DNA from: Dehalococcoidia bacterium
GTDB lineage: Bacteria > Chloroflexota > Dehalococcoidia > CAUJGQ01
Length of the DNA stretch: 64,000 nucleotides
Direction: 5' to 3'
NCBI GenBank assembly: GCA_035310145.1
Contig: DATGEL010000015.1
Coordinates: forward strand, 1-64,000
The notes beneath the pieces were generated by a model. It made no database searches. It had not been told where the DNA came from and worked only from the letters and a program-made list of their open reading frames with translations. Positions 6,676 through 34,023 of this stretch are shown one piece after another (the stretch's first letter is position 1; each line of letters starts with the position of its first letter). The translations under genes were made by a program, and so were the position numbers.

Positions 6676-7254
6676 TCAGGTCCGGGCCAGCGCGGCCAGT
6701 TTGCGCACGGTGTTCCAGTTGCGGCCCGTGCCGCGCGTGCCGAGCTTCGCCTCGATCAGCGTGTTCGTCAGCCGCGAGCGGCCGATCCCGTCTGGATAGC
6801 TGATGTAGGCGTGGCGACCGCCGGAGCTGACGGTCTCTCGGCCAGTAATCGCCGCACGCAGCGCCGCCACGGCCGCGTCGCCAGGTGCATGCTTCAGAAA
6901 CATGACGACGAGATGGGCGGGGTCGTGCGCGGCGAGATCGGGGAAGGGATTGTCATCGATCACACCGGTCAACTCTTCGGCGCTACGAACCATGAAATCG
7001 GTGTGCAGATCGAGCCGCCGGGCCGCTTCCAGCTCCAGTCGCCGTTCGATCTCCGCGGCCGCCGACTGCTCGCCGCGGAAGACGAGATTGCCGGTTTGCA
7101 GCAGCGAGCGCACGTCGGCGAAGCCGAGGTCCGCCAGCAGCCCGCGCAGGTCGGTCATGGCGACCGTTGCGTGGCCGCCGACGTTAATGCCGCGCAGCAG
7201 GGCGAGATAGACGGTCGTGTGCAGCCACTCCCCTTCCGTGTGCGCGGCGACCAC
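6676..7254 (-). CDS. DUF1697 family protein
   Basis: 192-residue DUF1697 protein, recognised from VYLALLRGINVGGH near the start, LRGLLADLGFADVRSLLQTGNLVF, and the closing RNWNTVRKLAAL. The family is widespread and lacks a firm biochemical role. The only in-frame initiator is GTG at 7254. A better Shine-Dalgarno-like stretch (GAAGGGGAG) lies slightly downstream without a usable in-frame start, so the N-terminal 10 residues are uncertain. It is the gene upstream of uvrC on the same strand, but the SOS promoter lies between them. Confidence 0.82.
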   Translation of the reverse strand: MVAAHTEGEWLHTTVYLALLRGINVGGHATVAMTDLRGLLADLGFADVRSLLQTGNLVFRGEQSAAAEIERRLELEAARRLDLHTDFMVRSAEELTGVIDDNPFPDLAAHDPAHLVVMFLKHAPGDAAVAALRAAITGRETVSSGGRHAYISYPDGIGRSRLTNTLIEAKLGTRGTGRNWNTVRKLAALART

Positions 7255-7376
7255 GGCGCCGCGGGCATGCCGCTGTTGTACCGTGTCGCCCGTCGCCGTC
7301 GCAAGCCCGACCGTGACCCGCGGAGGTCATGAGCGGCCGGCCGATCGCTGCCGCCGCACCAGCCCGTCGCCGCGGC

Positions 7377-8999
7377 TCAGACGTCCTGCGGCTCCAGCAG
7401 CCGCCGCAGCCGGTCAAGGGCGACGCCGGCCACGGCCAGCACGGCGCTGAGGCCGATGGCGAACAGCACGAGGCCGATCCCGGCGACCATGACATGGGTG
7501 CCCGCGCCGCCGAGCCTGCTCAGCGCCGCGAGGATCGCGGCGGCGGCCAGCGCCACGCTGCCCGTCATGAACAGCAGCGCCACGCCCGTGTACAGCAGAC
7601 AGCCCGCCGAGAGGCCGCTCTGGTGGCCGCGCGTGGCCGCCTGGTCGAAGCGCGGCTGGAAGGCGCCGACGGCCACGCCGGCCGCGCTGCAACCCGCGGC
7701 CAGCCAGGCGCCGCCCAGCGCCGCCACGATCAGGGCGCCAGCCGGCGCCTGGTGCAAGAAGGCGAGCGCCATGCCCGCCAGCGCGGTCAGCACGGCCACC
7801 GGCGTGGCCACGGCGATCGTCTTGCCCAGCAGCAGGCCGCCGGGTTCAAGCGGCGCGGCGCGCAGCACGTCGAAGGCGGGGCCCTCGCGGCTTACGGCGG
7901 CCAGCGCCGGCACCGGCGTCATCAGCAGCGGCACGATCGGCAGCGGCGCCAGGCTGAGCCAGTGTGCAGCGGCGCCGTGGCCGGCCGGCAGGCGAACGAG
8001 AATGAAGGGATAGCCGATCGCGTAGGCCAGCGAGGGCAGCAACGTGCTGAGATAGGGCCAGTCACGCAGCGTCGTGCGCCAGTCCTTGATCGCGATCGAG
8101 AGGGCCACGGAGTGGGTGCGGGCGGGCGCGGCGGCGCGGCTCCGTCGCCGCCGTGGGCCGGCCTCCCGCGCGCTCGACCAGCCGCTGAGGAAGACGCGGG
8201 TGAACAGGGCGTAGGCGACGGCAACGAGCAGCGCCAGGCACCCCGCCAGCGCGACGAGCGCGACTCCCGCCTGCAGCCAGCGGCCGCGGTAGCTCTCGGC
8301 GGCGAGCGCGGCGGCCCAGCCGGGCGGCGTCCAGCGCACCCAGCCGCCCAGCGCCGAGACCTTGTCCAGCGAGTTCTGACTGAAGAGGCCGCGGCGGCTG
8401 GAGGCGTACCAGAGCAACCAGACGCCCACGCCCAGGGCGCTGCCGGCCAGCAGCACCGCCTCGCGCAGCCGCTTCGCCGGGAAGACGCGCGCCAGCAGCA
8501 GCACGAGGCCCAGGTTAAACGCCGCCAGCAGCGCGGTGAGCAGCAGGCAGGACAGCAGCGCCGCGGCGTAGAACAGCGGCGACGCGCCTGTGCCGATCCC
8601 GAAGCCGGCGAGCGAGCAGGCGATCCAGGCAGCCGTCAGCAGCGACGGATAGGTGGTATCGAACAGCTTGAGCGCGAAGAGCACGAGATCCGGCAGCGGC
8701 GCCGTCAGCAACAGCTCGATGTCGGAGGCGACGAACAGCTCGTTGAGCGCCGTGCCGATGCCGCTGAGCAGCACGAACAGTAGCAGCGCCAGAAAGGGCA
8801 GCAGCAGCAGGTCCGCCTCGCGGCCGGGGTACTGATCCTTTGTGGCGGAGGCAATGCCGGCGCCGCCGAGCAGGGTGAACGCGCCGACGACCAGAGAGAT
8901 GATCGCGCTGAAGGCCGGGCCATAGCGCGCCAGGCCGCGCCGCGCGCCCAACGAACGCCGCCAGATCTTCAGCCGCGTGCGCAGGATCAGCAGCAACAT
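7377..8999 (-). CDS. ABC-2 type exporter membrane subunit
   Basis: 540-residue integral membrane protein with roughly 12 hydrophobic segments and no ATP-binding motifs. Examples are AIISLVVGAFTLLGGAGIA, LLLPFLALLLFVLLSGIG and the long C-terminal pair ending near ALDRLRRLLEPQDV. It starts 20 bp after the stop of an ABC ATPase gene on the same strand, so the two very likely form one exporter. The length suggests both membrane halves are fused. The substrate is unknown. The layout resembles multidrug, lantibiotic-immunity or lipid exporters. Confidence 0.78.
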   Translation of the reverse strand: MLLLILRTRLKIWRRSLGARRGLARYGPAFSAIISLVVGAFTLLGGAGIASATKDQYPGREADLLLLPFLALLLFVLLSGIGTALNELFVASDIELLLTAPLPDLVLFALKLFDTTYPSLLTAAWIACSLAGFGIGTGASPLFYAAALLSCLLLTALLAAFNLGLVLLLARVFPAKRLREAVLLAGSALGVGVWLLWYASSRRGLFSQNSLDKVSALGGWVRWTPPGWAAALAAESYRGRWLQAGVALVALAGCLALLVAVAYALFTRVFLSGWSSAREAGPRRRRSRAAAPARTHSVALSIAIKDWRTTLRDWPYLSTLLPSLAYAIGYPFILVRLPAGHGAAAHWLSLAPLPIVPLLMTPVPALAAVSREGPAFDVLRAAPLEPGGLLLGKTIAVATPVAVLTALAGMALAFLHQAPAGALIVAALGGAWLAAGCSAAGVAVGAFQPRFDQAATRGHQSGLSAGCLLYTGVALLFMTGSVALAAAAILAALSRLGGAGTHVMVAGIGLVLFAIGLSAVLAVAGVALDRLRRLLEPQDV

Positions 9000-25913: not shown

Positions 25914-26858
25914 CTACACCGGCGCGTGGCGGCCTGAGCGCCGCGCCAAGTGGCGCAACAGGTCCGTCTCCTTCACGGCGCGCGCCAGCTCGAGGAAGGC
26001 GGCCTGCGCGGCGGTGAGCGGAGCGCTGCGGTGCCGGGCGATGTAGAGCATACGCCGGCCGTCGAATTCCGGCACGGGCAGCACGCGCAGCCGCGCCGCC
26101 TGCAGCTCGACCTCCAGCGCGTAAATCGAGGTGAGGCCGACGCCCAGCCCGGCGAGCACGGCCCGCTTCACCGCCTCGTTGCTGCCCAGCTCCATCACGA
26201 AGCGCGGCGCCATGCCGGCGGCGACCAGCGCCCGCTCGCCCGTGGCCCGCGTGGCGCTGCCCGGCTCGCGCGCGATCAGCCCCGCCTCCAGGACATCGGC
26301 CAGGGTCACGACCGTGCGCCGGGCCAGCGGGTGGCCGCTGGCGACGAAGAGCACGACGCGGTCTTCGACGAACGGCTCCAGCGGCAGATCGGGGTGCTCG
26401 ACGCGGTCGCCGATGAAGCCGAGGTCGTAGACGTGGCGCATCAGCCAGTCGGTGACGCGGCGCGTGTCGGCGATCTCCAGCTCGACGCTGACGCCGGGGT
26501 AGCGGCGGTGAAACTCGCCCAGCACCGCCGGCAGCAGGTAATCCCCCGGCGTCTGGCCGGCGCCCACCACCAGCCGGCCGGCGCTGAGGCCCGTCAGCGC
26601 CGTGATCTCCGCCTGCAGCTGCTCGCTGAGCCGCAGGATGCGGTCGCCGTACTCGGCCGCGATCTGCCCGGCCTCGCTGAGCCGCACGCCGCGGCCGGCG
26701 CGCACGATCAGCCGCGCGCCCAGCGCCCGCTCCAGCGCCGCGACGTGCTGGGAAACGGCGGGCTGACCGAGATCCAGCGCCTCCGCCGCGCGCGTCAGGC
26801 TGCCCAGCCGCGCGACGCTGCGGAAGATGGCGAGCTGACGCAGCGTCGGCTCAATCAT
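25914..26858 (-). CDS. LysR-family transcriptional regulator (CysL/CbbR-like)
   Basis: 314 residues from ATG 26858. The winged HTH is LRQLAIFRSVARLGSLTRAAEALDLGQPAVSQHVAALERALG. The effector domain begins near residue 90 (GRLVVGAGQTPGDYLLPAVLGEFHRRYPGV). It is divergent from the two ArsM-like methyltransferase genes with only 107 bp between, the standard layout for a LysR protein and its target. So it probably controls them. Its closest look is to CysL/CbbR-type regulators; the co-inducer is unknown. Confidence 0.87.
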   Translation of the reverse strand: MIEPTLRQLAIFRSVARLGSLTRAAEALDLGQPAVSQHVAALERALGARLIVRAGRGVRLSEAGQIAAEYGDRILRLSEQLQAEITALTGLSAGRLVVGAGQTPGDYLLPAVLGEFHRRYPGVSVELEIADTRRVTDWLMRHVYDLGFIGDRVEHPDLPLEPFVEDRVVLFVASGHPLARRTVVTLADVLEAGLIAREPGSATRATGERALVAAGMAPRFVMELGSNEAVKRAVLAGLGVGLTSIYALEVELQAARLRVLPVPEFDGRRMLYIARHRSAPLTAAQAAFLELARAVKETDLLRHLARRSGRHAPV

Positions 26859-26965
26859 GCGTCTATCCTCATGCTTTCCATGCAATACCGCATCTACCAC
26901 GCATTTTACGCCCGCGCTTTCATGATCGTGTCCGTGAAGACGCACGCCAGCGAAAGGCGGCCGCG

Positions 26966-27769
26966 ATGGTTACCACGCCGCTCGATCTCGACGCGCTCAG
27001 CTGCGCGGTGCAGGACAAGTACACGGAGGTCGCGACGGATCCCGATCGCGGCTTCCACTTCCACACCGGCCGGCCGCTGGCGGCGCTGCTGGGCTATCCG
27101 GACGCCTGGGTAGCGGCGGTGCCCGACGCGGCCGTGCGGCGCTTCGCCGGCGTGGGCAATCCCTTCCAGTTCGGCACGCTGCCCGCGGGCACAACCGTGC
27201 TGGACGTCGGCTGCGGCGCCGGTTTCGACGCGCAGCACGCCGCCCGCCAGGTGGGAACAGGCGGCCGCGTGATCGGCGTCGACATGACACCGGCGATGCT
27301 GGCGGAGGCACGCGCCGCGGCCGCGCAAGCAGGGCTCTCGCACCTCGAGTTTCGCGAGGGCCGCGCCGAGCGCCTGCCGCTGGCGGACGCTTCCGTCGAC
27401 ATCGCGATCAGCAACGGCGCGATCAACCTCTGCCCGGACAAGGCCGCGGTCTACCGCGAGCTGTGGCGCGTGCTCAAGCCGGGTGGCCGCCTGCAGATCG
27501 CCGACGTGATGGTGCAGATCCCGGTGCCCGACGAGGCCAAAGCCGAGATCGACCTCTGGACCGGCTGAATCGCCGGCGGACTCCTCGTGGAGGAGTACCT
27601 GGACGTGGTGCGTGGCGCCGGCTTCGCCGACGTCGAGCTCGGTGAGATGGTGGATGTCTTCTCCGGATCGCCGCACGAGTCGGACGCGCGCGAGTTCGAG
27701 ACGCGCGGCGTCGGCTTCAGCGCCCGCAAGCCCGGCCGGCAGGAACGCAGCGATGTCCCAACTACCTGA
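26966..27769 (+). CDS. ArsM-like methyltransferase with in-frame UGA (probable selenoprotein)
   Basis: 267 codons if the TGA at 27566-27568 (residue 201) is read as selenocysteine. The SAM motif I is VLDVGCGAGFDAQHAA. INLCPDKAAVYRELWRVLKPGGRL matches the arsenite-methyltransferase-like family. After DLWTG comes UGA, then IAGGLLVEEYLDVVRGAGFADVEL and a normal tail GVGFSARKPG. ArsM proteins have CIAG or CVGG there, with the metal-binding Cys. A hairpin follows (27580-27596). The ATG is 107 bp from the divergent LysR gene. The full reading overlaps the next gene's start by 17 bp. Substrate inferred only: metalloid or thiol. If UGA is a stop, the protein is a 200-residue fragment. Confidence 0.75.
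27580..27596 (+). promoter_or_regulatory. Candidate SECIS hairpin 1
   Basis: ACTCCTC pairs perfectly with GAGGAGT around loop GTG. The loop G is nucleotide 19 after the UGA. Bacterial SECIS hairpins sit immediately downstream of UGA with a G early in the apical loop, roughly 16-37 nt away. This fits. Confidence 0.6.
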
Positions 27770-28520
27770 CGGCCTCTCGCCCGACGCGGTGCAGGCGGCC
27801 GTACGCGAGCGCTACAGTGGCGTTGCCGCCGAACCTGCGCGGGACTTCGGCTTCCCGGTTGGCCGCGCCTTTGCGGAGGCCGTGGGCTACGCGCCGGAGC
27901 TGCTGGCGGCGCTGCCCGCGGAGGCGGCGGAGGCGTTCGCCGGCGTCGCCTGCCCCGTGCCGCGGGCCGAATTACACCCCGGCGAGACGGTGGTCGACCT
28001 GGGCTGCGGCGCGGGGCTCGACAGCCTGCTCGCGGCGCGGGCCGTGGGGGAGACGGGCCACGTGATCGGCGTCGACTTCGCACCGCAAATGGTGGAACGG
28101 GCGCGGCGCGTGGCGAACGTGGCGAGGATGCCGCAGGTCGAGATACGGCTGGCGGACGGCTGCGCCCTGCCACTGGCGGACGAGTCGGCCGACGCCGTGC
28201 TGGTCAACGGCATCTTCAACCTCAACCCCGACAAGACGGCGCTGCTGCGCGAGGCGGGGCGCGTGCTGCGGCCGGGCGGGCGGCTGGTCGCGGCCGAGAT
28301 CATCCTGACCGCGCCGCTGCCGGAGGGCGAAGGGCACAGCCTGGACGACTGGTTCCGTTGAATCGGCGGCGCTGAACCGGAAGGGGACCTTCTGGACCAC
28401 GTCACCGCCGCCGGCTTCGCCCGCGTCGCCGTGCTCGACCGCTGCCGCAACGCCCGCACCGGCGCGGCGCAGTCGGCCGTGCTGCTGTTCCGCGCGCGCA
28501 AAGCCGCAACCGTGCGCTGA
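27753..28520 (+). CDS. Second ArsM-like methyltransferase with in-frame UGA (probable selenoprotein)
   Basis: 255 codons with UGA at residue 203 (28359-28361). It is paralogous to the gene before it: VRERYSGVAAEPARDFGFPVGR, SAM motif VVDLGCGAGLDSLLAAR, FNLNPDKTALLREAGRVLRPGGRL. After DDWFR comes UGA, then IGGAEPEGDLLDHVTAAGFARV and a tail ending LLFRARKA, again as the family continues after its conserved Cys. A SECIS-like hairpin follows (28377-28395). The ATG at 27753 (AGGAACGCAGCG upstream) lies inside the tail of the first gene, so the pair is translationally linked only if the first UGA is decoded. Function inferred as in the first gene. Confidence 0.75.
28377..28395 (+). promoter_or_regulatory. 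Candidate SECIS hairpin 2
   Basis: CCGGAAGG pairs with CCTTCTGG (one G-U) around loop GGA. The first loop G is nucleotide 24 after the UGA, inside the usual bacterial SECIS range. The stem sequence is unrelated to hairpin 1 while the geometry is the same. Confidence 0.6.
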
Positions 28521-28530
28521 TCCTGCCGGA

Positions 28531-30416: not shown

Positions 30417-30969
30417 AGCCGCACCCTCCGCGGGGTAAATGATCAGGCGCTAACGCCTTCGCCTGGATACTATCCCATTACAAGGCCGACAACAAGGCCG
30501 ATTACGTCGATACCGTGTTCGGCGCCGATCGCCGCCGCGCTGTGCGCCGGACGTCTTCGCCAGAAGCAAACCGTCTCTTACCGAGAGCATACCATAACGG
30601 CAGCACGTCTGTTCGCGCCTCAAGGGTATAACACGCCTGCTCTGCGCTTCCGTTATCCGCGAAGGCCGCGCGCCGAACCCCGCGGTGATTCCACATCGCC
30701 GCTCCGCGGCGTTCTGAAGAGTGCGGTGCCTCCCTTCCCCTCAGGTCATGTGTCTCACGTGTGTCGTGAGGAAGGGTCATGCGAGGGCTCTCGCTTGCGG
30801 GGTCAGCGATCGGCGTGCGGCAGGGGCAGCCCGTGATTTCCCCGCGTGGAAACGGCATTGAAACACGCAGGAAACATCCACGGCGTAGGCTGAGCGGTGT
30901 GCCCTGGTCGAGGCCGGGCCGCAACTTTGCCCAGAGTTGAGAGTCCCGAAAGTCGGAGGAGGCGCGGCG
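30417..30969. other. Long leader region upstream of glutamine synthetase
   Basis: About 550 bp with no gene. CTCACG-TGTGT-CGTGAG (30754-30770) is an inverted repeat. Its right arm could alternatively pair, together with GAAGGG, with upstream CCCTTCCCCTCA (30732-30743), giving two mutually exclusive folds. Such switching would suit nitrogen control of the downstream gene, but nothing proves it. Confidence 0.35.
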
Positions 30970-32403
<1,434 letters not shown>

Positions 32404-32589: not shown

Positions 32590-32646
32590 GTCTCCTTCCC
32601 CCATCGTGCAACGAATGGGGGAAGGAGACGGGAGAGGTTGAGGGCC
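32590..32646. repeat. CTCTCCC palindromic repeat, copy 7
   Basis: GTCTCCTTCCCCCAT pairs perfectly with ATGGGGGAAGGAGAC. An inner CGT/ACG pair extends the stem, and the tail is GAGAGGTTGAGGGC. It sits about 30 bp upstream of the second glutamine synthetase start and would lie in its leader. Confidence 0.75.
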
Positions 32647-32676
32647 GAGAGCTCCGCATGCAAGGACAGAGCTCCT

Positions 32677-34023
32677 ATGAACGACGAGCAAGAGCGCCAG
32701 GAAACCAAAGAGTACGTCCTGCAACACGCCCGCGACCAGGACGTGAAGTTCATCCGCCTCTGGTTCACCGACATCATCGGCTCGCTCAAGAGCCTGGCGA
32801 TCACGGTCGAGGAGCTGGAGAACGTGCTGGACGAGGGCATGATCTTCGACGGCTCGGCGATCGAGGGCTTCGCCCGCCACGACGAGACCGACATGATCGC
32901 CATGCCCGACCCCACGACCTTCCAGGTGCTGCCCTGGCGGCCGCGCTCGCAGGCCGTGGCGCGGCTGATCTGCGACGTGCAACTGCCGGACGGCACGCCC
33001 TTCGAGGGCGACCCGCGCTACGTGCTGCGCCGCAACCTGCAGCGCGCCGCGAAGCTCGGCTACACCTTCTACGTCGAGCCGGAGCTGGAGTTCTTCTACT
33101 TCAAGAACGCCGAGGGCACCGAGGGGCTGGACGACGGCGGCTACCTGGACCTGACGCCGCTGGACGTGGCCAGCGACCTGCGCCGCGAGACGGTGCTGGC
33201 CCTGGAAGCGATGGGGATCGGCGTCGAGTACAGCCATCACGAGGTCGCCGCCAGCCAGCACGAGATCGGCCTGCGCTACACCGACGCGCTGACCATGGCC
33301 GACGCGGCGATGACCTACCGCATGGTGGTCAAAGAGGTGGCCCTGCGCCACGGCGTCTACGCGACCTTCATGCCGAAGCCGCTAGCCGGCCAGAACGGCA
33401 GCGGCATGCACACGCACCAGTCGCTGTTCCGCGGCGAAGCCAACGCGTTCTTCGACGAGACGGCAGCCTATCACCTCTCGGCCGCAGCGCAAGGCTACGT
33501 GGCCGGCCTGCTGCGCCACGCGCGCGAGATCACGCTCGTCACCAACCAGTGGGTGAACTCCTATAAGCGGCTGCTGCCCGGCTATGAGGCGCCCGTCTAC
33601 CTGACCTGGGCGGCGCGGCGCAACTGGTCGAACCTGGTGCGCATTCCCGAGTTGAAGACCGGCCGGCCGGACCAGATGCGCGCCGAGTACCGCGCGCCGG
33701 ACCCGGCCTGCAACCCCTATCTCGCCTTCGCGGCGATGCTGGCCGCGGGACTCGACGGCATCGAGAAGGAGTACCCGCTGCCGGAGCCGGTGGAGGCGAA
33801 CGTCTTCGCCATGAGCGCGGAGGAGCGCGAGCGGCGCGGCATCGGCCAGTTGCCCGGCGATCTGCACGAGGCGATTGAAGAAGCCGCGGGCAGCGAGCTG
33901 CTGCGCAACGCCCTGGGCGAGCGGCTGATGGAGAGCTTCGTGCAGAACAAGCTGATCGAGTGGGAGGCGTACCGCAGCGCAATCACCGACTTCGAGCTGA
34001 AGCGCTACTTGCCGGTGCTGTAG
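32677..34023 (+). CDS. glnA: Glutamine synthetase type I (alpha-like)
   Basis: 448 residues. It carries FIRLWFTDIIGSLKSLAITVEELE and MIFDGSAIEGFARHDETDM, FYVEPELEFFYFK, YSHHEVAASQHEIGLRY, KPLAGQNGSGMHTHQSL and KRLLPGYEAPVYLTWAARRNWS. It is shorter than its neighbour and lacks the adenylylation-loop Tyr block (AMSAEERERRGIGQLPGDL instead), as in the GSI-alpha group controlled by feedback. It could also be a GlnA-like ligase for another amine. ATG 32677 follows AAGGA. Confidence 0.9.
   Translation: MNDEQERQETKEYVLQHARDQDVKFIRLWFTDIIGSLKSLAITVEELENVLDEGMIFDGSAIEGFARHDETDMIAMPDPTTFQVLPWRPRSQAVARLICDVQLPDGTPFEGDPRYVLRRNLQRAAKLGYTFYVEPELEFFYFKNAEGTEGLDDGGYLDLTPLDVASDLRRETVLALEAMGIGVEYSHHEVAASQHEIGLRYTDALTMADAAMTYRMVVKEVALRHGVYATFMPKPLAGQNGSGMHTHQSLFRGEANAFFDETAAYHLSAAAQGYVAGLLRHAREITLVTNQWVNSYKRLLPGYEAPVYLTWAARRNWSNLVRIPELKTGRPDQMRAEYRAPDPACNPYLAFAAMLAAGLDGIEKEYPLPEPVEANVFAMSAEERERRGIGQLPGDLHEAIEEAAGSELLRNALGERLMESFVQNKLIEWEAYRSAITDFELKRYLPVL

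Follow-up and report, generated by a model that had tools for sequence, protein, structure and literature searches.

Selenocysteine (Sec) has been reported before in proteins related to the arsenite methyltransferase ArsM. Eight Sec-containing sequences of the arsenite S-adenosylmethyltransferase type are given in the GOS study of 2008 (PMC2398784), and a Sec arsenite methyltransferase with the motif UxxG is tabulated in two reviews from 2022 (PMC9312934) and 2026 (PMC13188914), the latter of which credits a Sec ArsM-like protein to Fomenko 2007. Sec at this position of ArsM is already in published selenoproteome lists, and the family had been recognised as Sec-containing before. The published protein (PRK11873/NF008823 type), for which Cys homologues are known, shares with the two genes described here the same fold and Sec in the same CxxG column, and the published Sec members may include the clade of these two genes. 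Three further families, NF041537 (ArsM_AhpD_UU), NF041536 (ArsM_DUF2284_UU) and NF047649, are attributed to Haft and Tolstoy 2025 in PMC13188914. Their methyltransferase domain has Sec in UxxG, as do our genes, but it is fused to another domain that also has Sec, whereas the proteins described here are single-domain. Small S-methyltransferases of the UbiE fold that act on H2S and MeSH are also known, namely MddM2 and MddH, and no description of either as a selenoprotein was found in the accessible part of their report (PMC12904073).

In the window, which is the whole analysed stretch of 64,000 nucleotides, two genes for ArsM-like S-adenosylmethionine (SAM) methyltransferases lie side by side on the plus strand. 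Gene A (26966..27769), recognised from its open reading frame, homology, alignment and an AlphaFold (AF2) model, starts with the ATG at 26966 and ends with the TGA at 27767-27769; it would encode a stand-alone selenoprotein of 267 amino acids with Sec at residue 201, where a UGA (27566..27568) stands in the motif LWTGUIAGG. Gene B (27753..28521), placed by reading frame, homology, alignment and tree, runs from the ATG at 27753 to the TGA at 28519-28521 and would encode 255 amino acids with Sec at residue 203, from a UGA (28359..28361) in the motif DWFRUIGGA. Each gene contains a single in-frame TGA, after which the frame is open to the terminal TGA. An earlier sequence-only reading had described two neighbouring paralogues of this form at 26966-28520, and both the arrangement and the location were borne out by reading the frames, except that the end was one base short (28521 is correct).

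The two internal TGAs fall in one alignment column, as that reading had noted, and every one of the 24 aligned proteins has either Cys or Sec in this column. In solved ArsM structures its counterpart is the Cys of 'ECLxG', which is Cys174 in the numbering of the algal enzyme, which agrees with the residue proposed earlier. In a search for gene A orthologues across 197 genomes of the class, matches (E<1e-74) came from many families, and almost all of them carried a single internal TGA at that codon, with the consensus LW[ST]GUIAGALL...DVFSGSxHESDA around it. The earlier argument that two independent errors at this codon are very unlikely can therefore be strengthened, as chance is excluded. A wider scan, covering 84,980 species genomes, added members of the A clade from Actinomycetota, Pseudomonadota, Gemmatimonadota, Acidobacteriota, SAR324, Dormibacterota and others, making at least eight phyla. 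That both TGAs are sequencing errors, or that UGA is read as tryptophan under an altered genetic code, has nothing in its favour beyond the in-frame TGAs themselves; the UGA is common to independent genomes of many phyla, A and B both terminate at TGA, and homologues without UGA have Cys and never Trp at the site, so that this explanation can be given practically no weight.

Another explanation is that the UGAs are real stops, leaving proteins of 200 and 202 residues, or decayed genes. A truncated fold is conceivable, as the Rossmann core is mostly N-terminal to the UGA. However, about 50-65 residues 3' of the UGA are conserved, and gene B starts 17 nt before the distal stop of gene A, an overlap that fits read-through as the normal event. 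Together with the behaviour of the hairpin and of the codon itself, described below, this makes termination at the UGAs very improbable.

A search of the two-gene region with Rfam gave no SECIS family, only weak chance matches; candidate hairpins were therefore examined by folding, synonymous shuffling and covariation. SECIS-like hairpins were found just 3' of both UGAs. In gene A it is ACUCCUC-GUG-GAGGAGU (27580..27596, plus strand), with the triloop 19-21 nt after the UGA, and in gene B, where it was identified by folding, CCGGAAGG-GGA-CCUUCUGG (28377..28395, plus strand), with the triloop at 24-26 nt. Among 28 distinct sequences of the A clade, 89.8% of the helix cells were paired, falling to 47% or less in slid registers, and two-sided changes were seen in 18 cells vs 4.9 in shuffles. 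The hairpin of the window's gene A lies one base further 3' than the common register of its clade. Six of the seven helix positions pair in 86-97% of the Sec genes but in only 26-54% of the Cys genes, while the outermost pairs in both alike, and the energy relative to synonymous shuffles gave a mean z of -1.3 for 77 Sec genes vs -0.11 for 50 Cys genes. This covariation, and the loss of the hairpin in Cys genes, are hard to reconcile with UGA as a real stop. For gene B, the hairpin outperformed dinucleotide shuffles (z -2.3 to -2.6) but was no better than synonymous ones (z -0.14), although its orthologues keep similar hairpins at about +25. The evidence from the hairpin is thus strong for A, through covariation, and statistically weaker for B.

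The genome that carries the window (5.32 Mb in 148 contigs, 99.8% complete) has the machinery for Sec. Outside the window, which had been noted correctly as free of selA, selB, selC and selD, we found selA (519.6 bits), selB (325.2 bits), a tRNA-Sec with the anticodon UCA (74.4 bits) and selD (365.5 bits), which has its own in-frame TGA within 'SCGGUASKV' (G000:C119:309-1241, L012). The Rfam model for tRNA-Sec also matches Ser-like tRNAs at 30-54 bits, and only matches of at least 61 bits were therefore counted. On this basis, 22 of the 23 genomes of the class with a UGA orthologue had one or more of selA, selB (above cut-off) and tRNA-Sec. The exception, G113, has a UGA copy of gene A and no detectable selA, selB or tRNA-Sec; this copy (L104, about 7160-7900) looks inactive because of a frameshift inside the gene, though the frameshift could be a sequencing error. 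Genome G051 has the Cys codon UGC at the site and none of selA, selB and tRNA-Sec. A 47-bit tRNA-Sec match in that genome was discounted by analogy with a 48-bit match in the host genome, which ARAGORN calls tRNA-Ser. As a Cys version also occurs alongside Sec machinery (L117), the dependence between codon and machinery is one-way, as would be expected.

In Modestobacter sp. DSM 44400, the orthologue of gene A has TAG (UAG) at the Sec site (L142:5001-5786), and the tRNA-Sec of this genome (66.9 bits, L213:1501-1596) has the anticodon CUA. UAG at the site was found only where the tRNA-Sec reads UAG, which argues against a real stop, and this pairing of codon and anticodon amounts to a natural experiment that identifies the site as Sec. 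ARAGORN labels this CUA tRNA-Sec as tRNA-Pyl. The use of UAG for Sec in the bacterial family of Modestobacter is already known for other selenoproteins (PMC5330540).

Sec and Cys also exchange at the site. The A side of the tree has 77 rows, of which 69 are Sec (UGA or UAG) and 8 are Cys, and the label changes at least six times over the whole tree; Cys is found in L096, L110, L117, L134 and canonical ArsM. The homologues thus retain Cys where they lack Sec, the machinery is present and the region after the UGA has not decayed, so none of the findings that could have overturned the sequence-only reading was obtained. Its central claim, that both UGAs are decoded as Sec, is supported by all the lines of evidence examined, namely the machinery, the SECIS covariation, the exchange with Cys, the swap of UGA for UAG and the downstream conservation. 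From these comparisons, we consider A and B to be selenoproteins with a probability of about 0.9. The internal UGAs would be read as Sec by the cell's SelA, SelB, SelD and tRNA-Sec, with the hairpin just 3' of each UGA directing the insertion, and full-length products of 267 (A) and 255 (B) amino acids would be made.

The two genes are paralogues, as previously claimed, but they do not come from a recent duplication. A recent tandem duplication was rejected because B does not cluster with A; it forms a separate all-UGA clade with B genes from other members of the Chloroflexota (SH-aLRT 99). In a further genome of this phylum (G283, L202), a divergent LysR gene, an A gene with UGA and a B gene with UGA follow in the same order as in the window, A and B being separated by about 530 nt, and the same LysR-A-B arrangement is shown by L121. 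A and B are, therefore, a pair of Sec paralogues of old origin that distant Chloroflexota have retained as a LysR-A-B tandem, which was less expected.

Other tandems of related genes were seen. A Nitriliruptoraceae bacterium has another double-UGA methyltransferase tandem (L136:1932 and 2912), in which the partner belongs to another ArsM-like subgroup (AWAGUVAGAL) and not to B. Five proteobacterial loci (L155, L157, L158, L163 and L165) have tandems of two Cys-type relatives, with CIGG and CVVG, and several of these have an ECF sigma factor gene nearby.

In the window, A and B are flanked on one side by a gene for a LysR-type regulator (25914..26945, minus strand), which is divergent from and adjoins gene A, and on the other side by DUF3224 and glyoxalase-like genes, with nothing else. 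A-type genes have a homologous LysR gene as their neighbour both in G283/L202, where it precedes A and B, and in G367/L206, which makes the LysR of the window the probable regulator. It is the only neighbour common to the window and the relatives. Further along the window, two tandem glutamine synthetase look-alikes (30937-32403 and 32638-34023) were noticed by eye from the translations.

Although A and B have the fold of ArsM, two features that define ArsM failed when tested. The AF2 model of A (mean pLDDT 90.9) has as its best match in the PDB the ArsM structure 4fr0 (Z 27.2, rmsd 4.3 over 223 residues), but Z values near 20 were also obtained with many other methyltransferases that share the fold, so that fold comparison cannot separate substrates. 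Compared with ArsM/AS3MT (PDB 4fr0, 6cx6, 5evj, 8xt7), A and B share the fold and the SAM motifs and have Sec in place of the active-site Cys, in the Cys174 column. Equivalents of Cys44 and Cys72, which are present in ArsM/AS3MT, are missing from the alignment of A, B and their Sec relatives. In the A clade, GFHFHTG, a stretch with no Cys, replaces the CC motif, FAG[TV]GNP replaces GCGNP with Val or Thr in the Cys72 column, and 'SNC' of ArsM is 'SNG' in A, B and the Sec relatives. Past the Sec region, where an equivalent of Cys224 would be sought, the alignment thins; in the whole part after Sec, A has no Cys and B has one. ArsM/AS3MT proteins are also longer, at about 380 amino acids with a C-terminal extension that A and B do not have.

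Against the ArsM model NF008823 (cut-off 263 bits), A scored 217.5 and B 178.3 bits, both below the cut-off, while the other homologue in the host genome, a canonical Cys ArsM on contig 44 (L026), scored 306.1. The best or near-best NCBIfam scores of A and B were to the three Sec fusion models, at 190-224 bits with cut-offs of 460-575. For NF041537 these were 220.7 and 224.2 bits (A and B; cut-off 510), through the methyltransferase part only, and for NF047649 (MTase_UXPK_star, a double selenoprotein) 201.2 and 212.7 bits (cut-off 460). A and B have one Sec each.

The gene neighbourhood of the relatives was surveyed with 136 adjacent proteins of the A clade, without selection by family. The leading families were rhodanese (12), OsmC (9), ArsR helix-turn-helix (7), DsrE (5) and metallo-beta-lactamase (5), with up to 9 further methyltransferases; the recurrent neighbours were ArsR-rhodanese, and metallo-beta-lactamase-rhodanese plus MFS. 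One Cys-type member of the Sec clade (L110:4971-6047) is fused to a TusA sulfurtransferase domain, and DsrE and OsmC genes come after it. The 25 commonest families of these neighbours included no arsenic pump or reductase, and no selenium-specific gene recurred among the 136 proteins.

The loss of the Cys44 and Cys72 equivalents, together with relatives that lie among rhodanese, TusA, DsrE and OsmC genes, make a sulfide, persulfide or thiol the most likely substrate, one that is probably not arsenic. Of the metalloid or thiol methyltransferase proposed earlier, the thiol alternative fits better, and metal binding is weakened by the same absences and neighbours. We favour, tentatively and at somewhat less than even odds, selenol-dependent sulfide, persulfide or thiol methyltransferases. 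The sulfur context comes from the relatives and not from the window, and rhodanese and ArsR genes can occur near metalloid genes too. The selenol would stand in place of the substrate-binding Cys174 of ArsM, facing the methyl group of SAM, and may bind or activate a soft nucleophile. The substrate, or its selenium analogue, would then be methylated in thiol or persulfide detoxification, the function for which MddH and MddM2, which A and B resemble by description, are used. Within this LysR-flanked tandem of ArsM/UbiE-fold enzymes, the two paralogues might, speculatively, act in sequence or as a heteromer. A more specific and slightly more doubtful proposal is a two-enzyme, doubly Sec-dependent system for methylating the sulfur of persulfides, sulfide or thiols and not arsenic, as part of a detoxification pathway with rhodanese, TusA, DsrE and OsmC that is conserved in several phyla.

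It is also possible, though unlikely, that the selenoproteins A and B truly methylate arsenite or methylarsenite, with a single selenol offsetting the missing thiols and the tandem carrying out successive methylations. The loss of Cys72 and Cys44 alone is compatible with binding of a trivalent metalloid through the selenol, ArsM/AS3MT are, in both sequence and fold, the closest relatives with a solved structure, the Sec column is that of the As-binding Cys174, and the published Sec-containing relatives carry the name arsenite methyltransferase. However, the whole Sec clade is without both Cys equivalents, A and B remain under the ArsM cut-off that the Cys homologue of the same genome exceeds, and arsenic pumps and reductases are missing from the commonest neighbour families. 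An action on selenide or methylselenol, giving volatile methylated selenium, seems rather improbable. The host has Sec metabolism, MddM2 and MddH methylate H2S and MeSH with a related fold, and sulfur-relay neighbours could handle selenium too, but no selenium-specific gene recurs nearby and the use of Sec is by itself no sign of a selenium substrate.

Compared with the published Sec arsenite S-adenosylmethyltransferase, A and B fall under the NF008823 cut-off, do not have Cys44 and Cys72, form a tandem of old Sec paralogues and have relatives with sulfur-related neighbours. No mention of a tandem of two Sec paralogues was found in the accessible text of PMC2398784, PMC9312934 and PMC13188914. 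Within the accessible literature, the following appear to be new: a clade of stand-alone, thiol-poor proteins that has a sulfur context, the B clade, a double-Sec tandem that is conserved, and the use of UAG for Sec in this family.

Enzymes that use Sec mostly carry out redox chemistry. A broad clade of methyltransferases that have Sec and only one conserved chalcogen ligand offers a clean test of what selenium contributes to a site of methyl transfer. As automatic gene calls are cut short at the UGA and the proteins score below curated models, many such genes probably carry the annotation of a truncated arsenite methyltransferase, and surveys of arsenic methylation would be biased by this.
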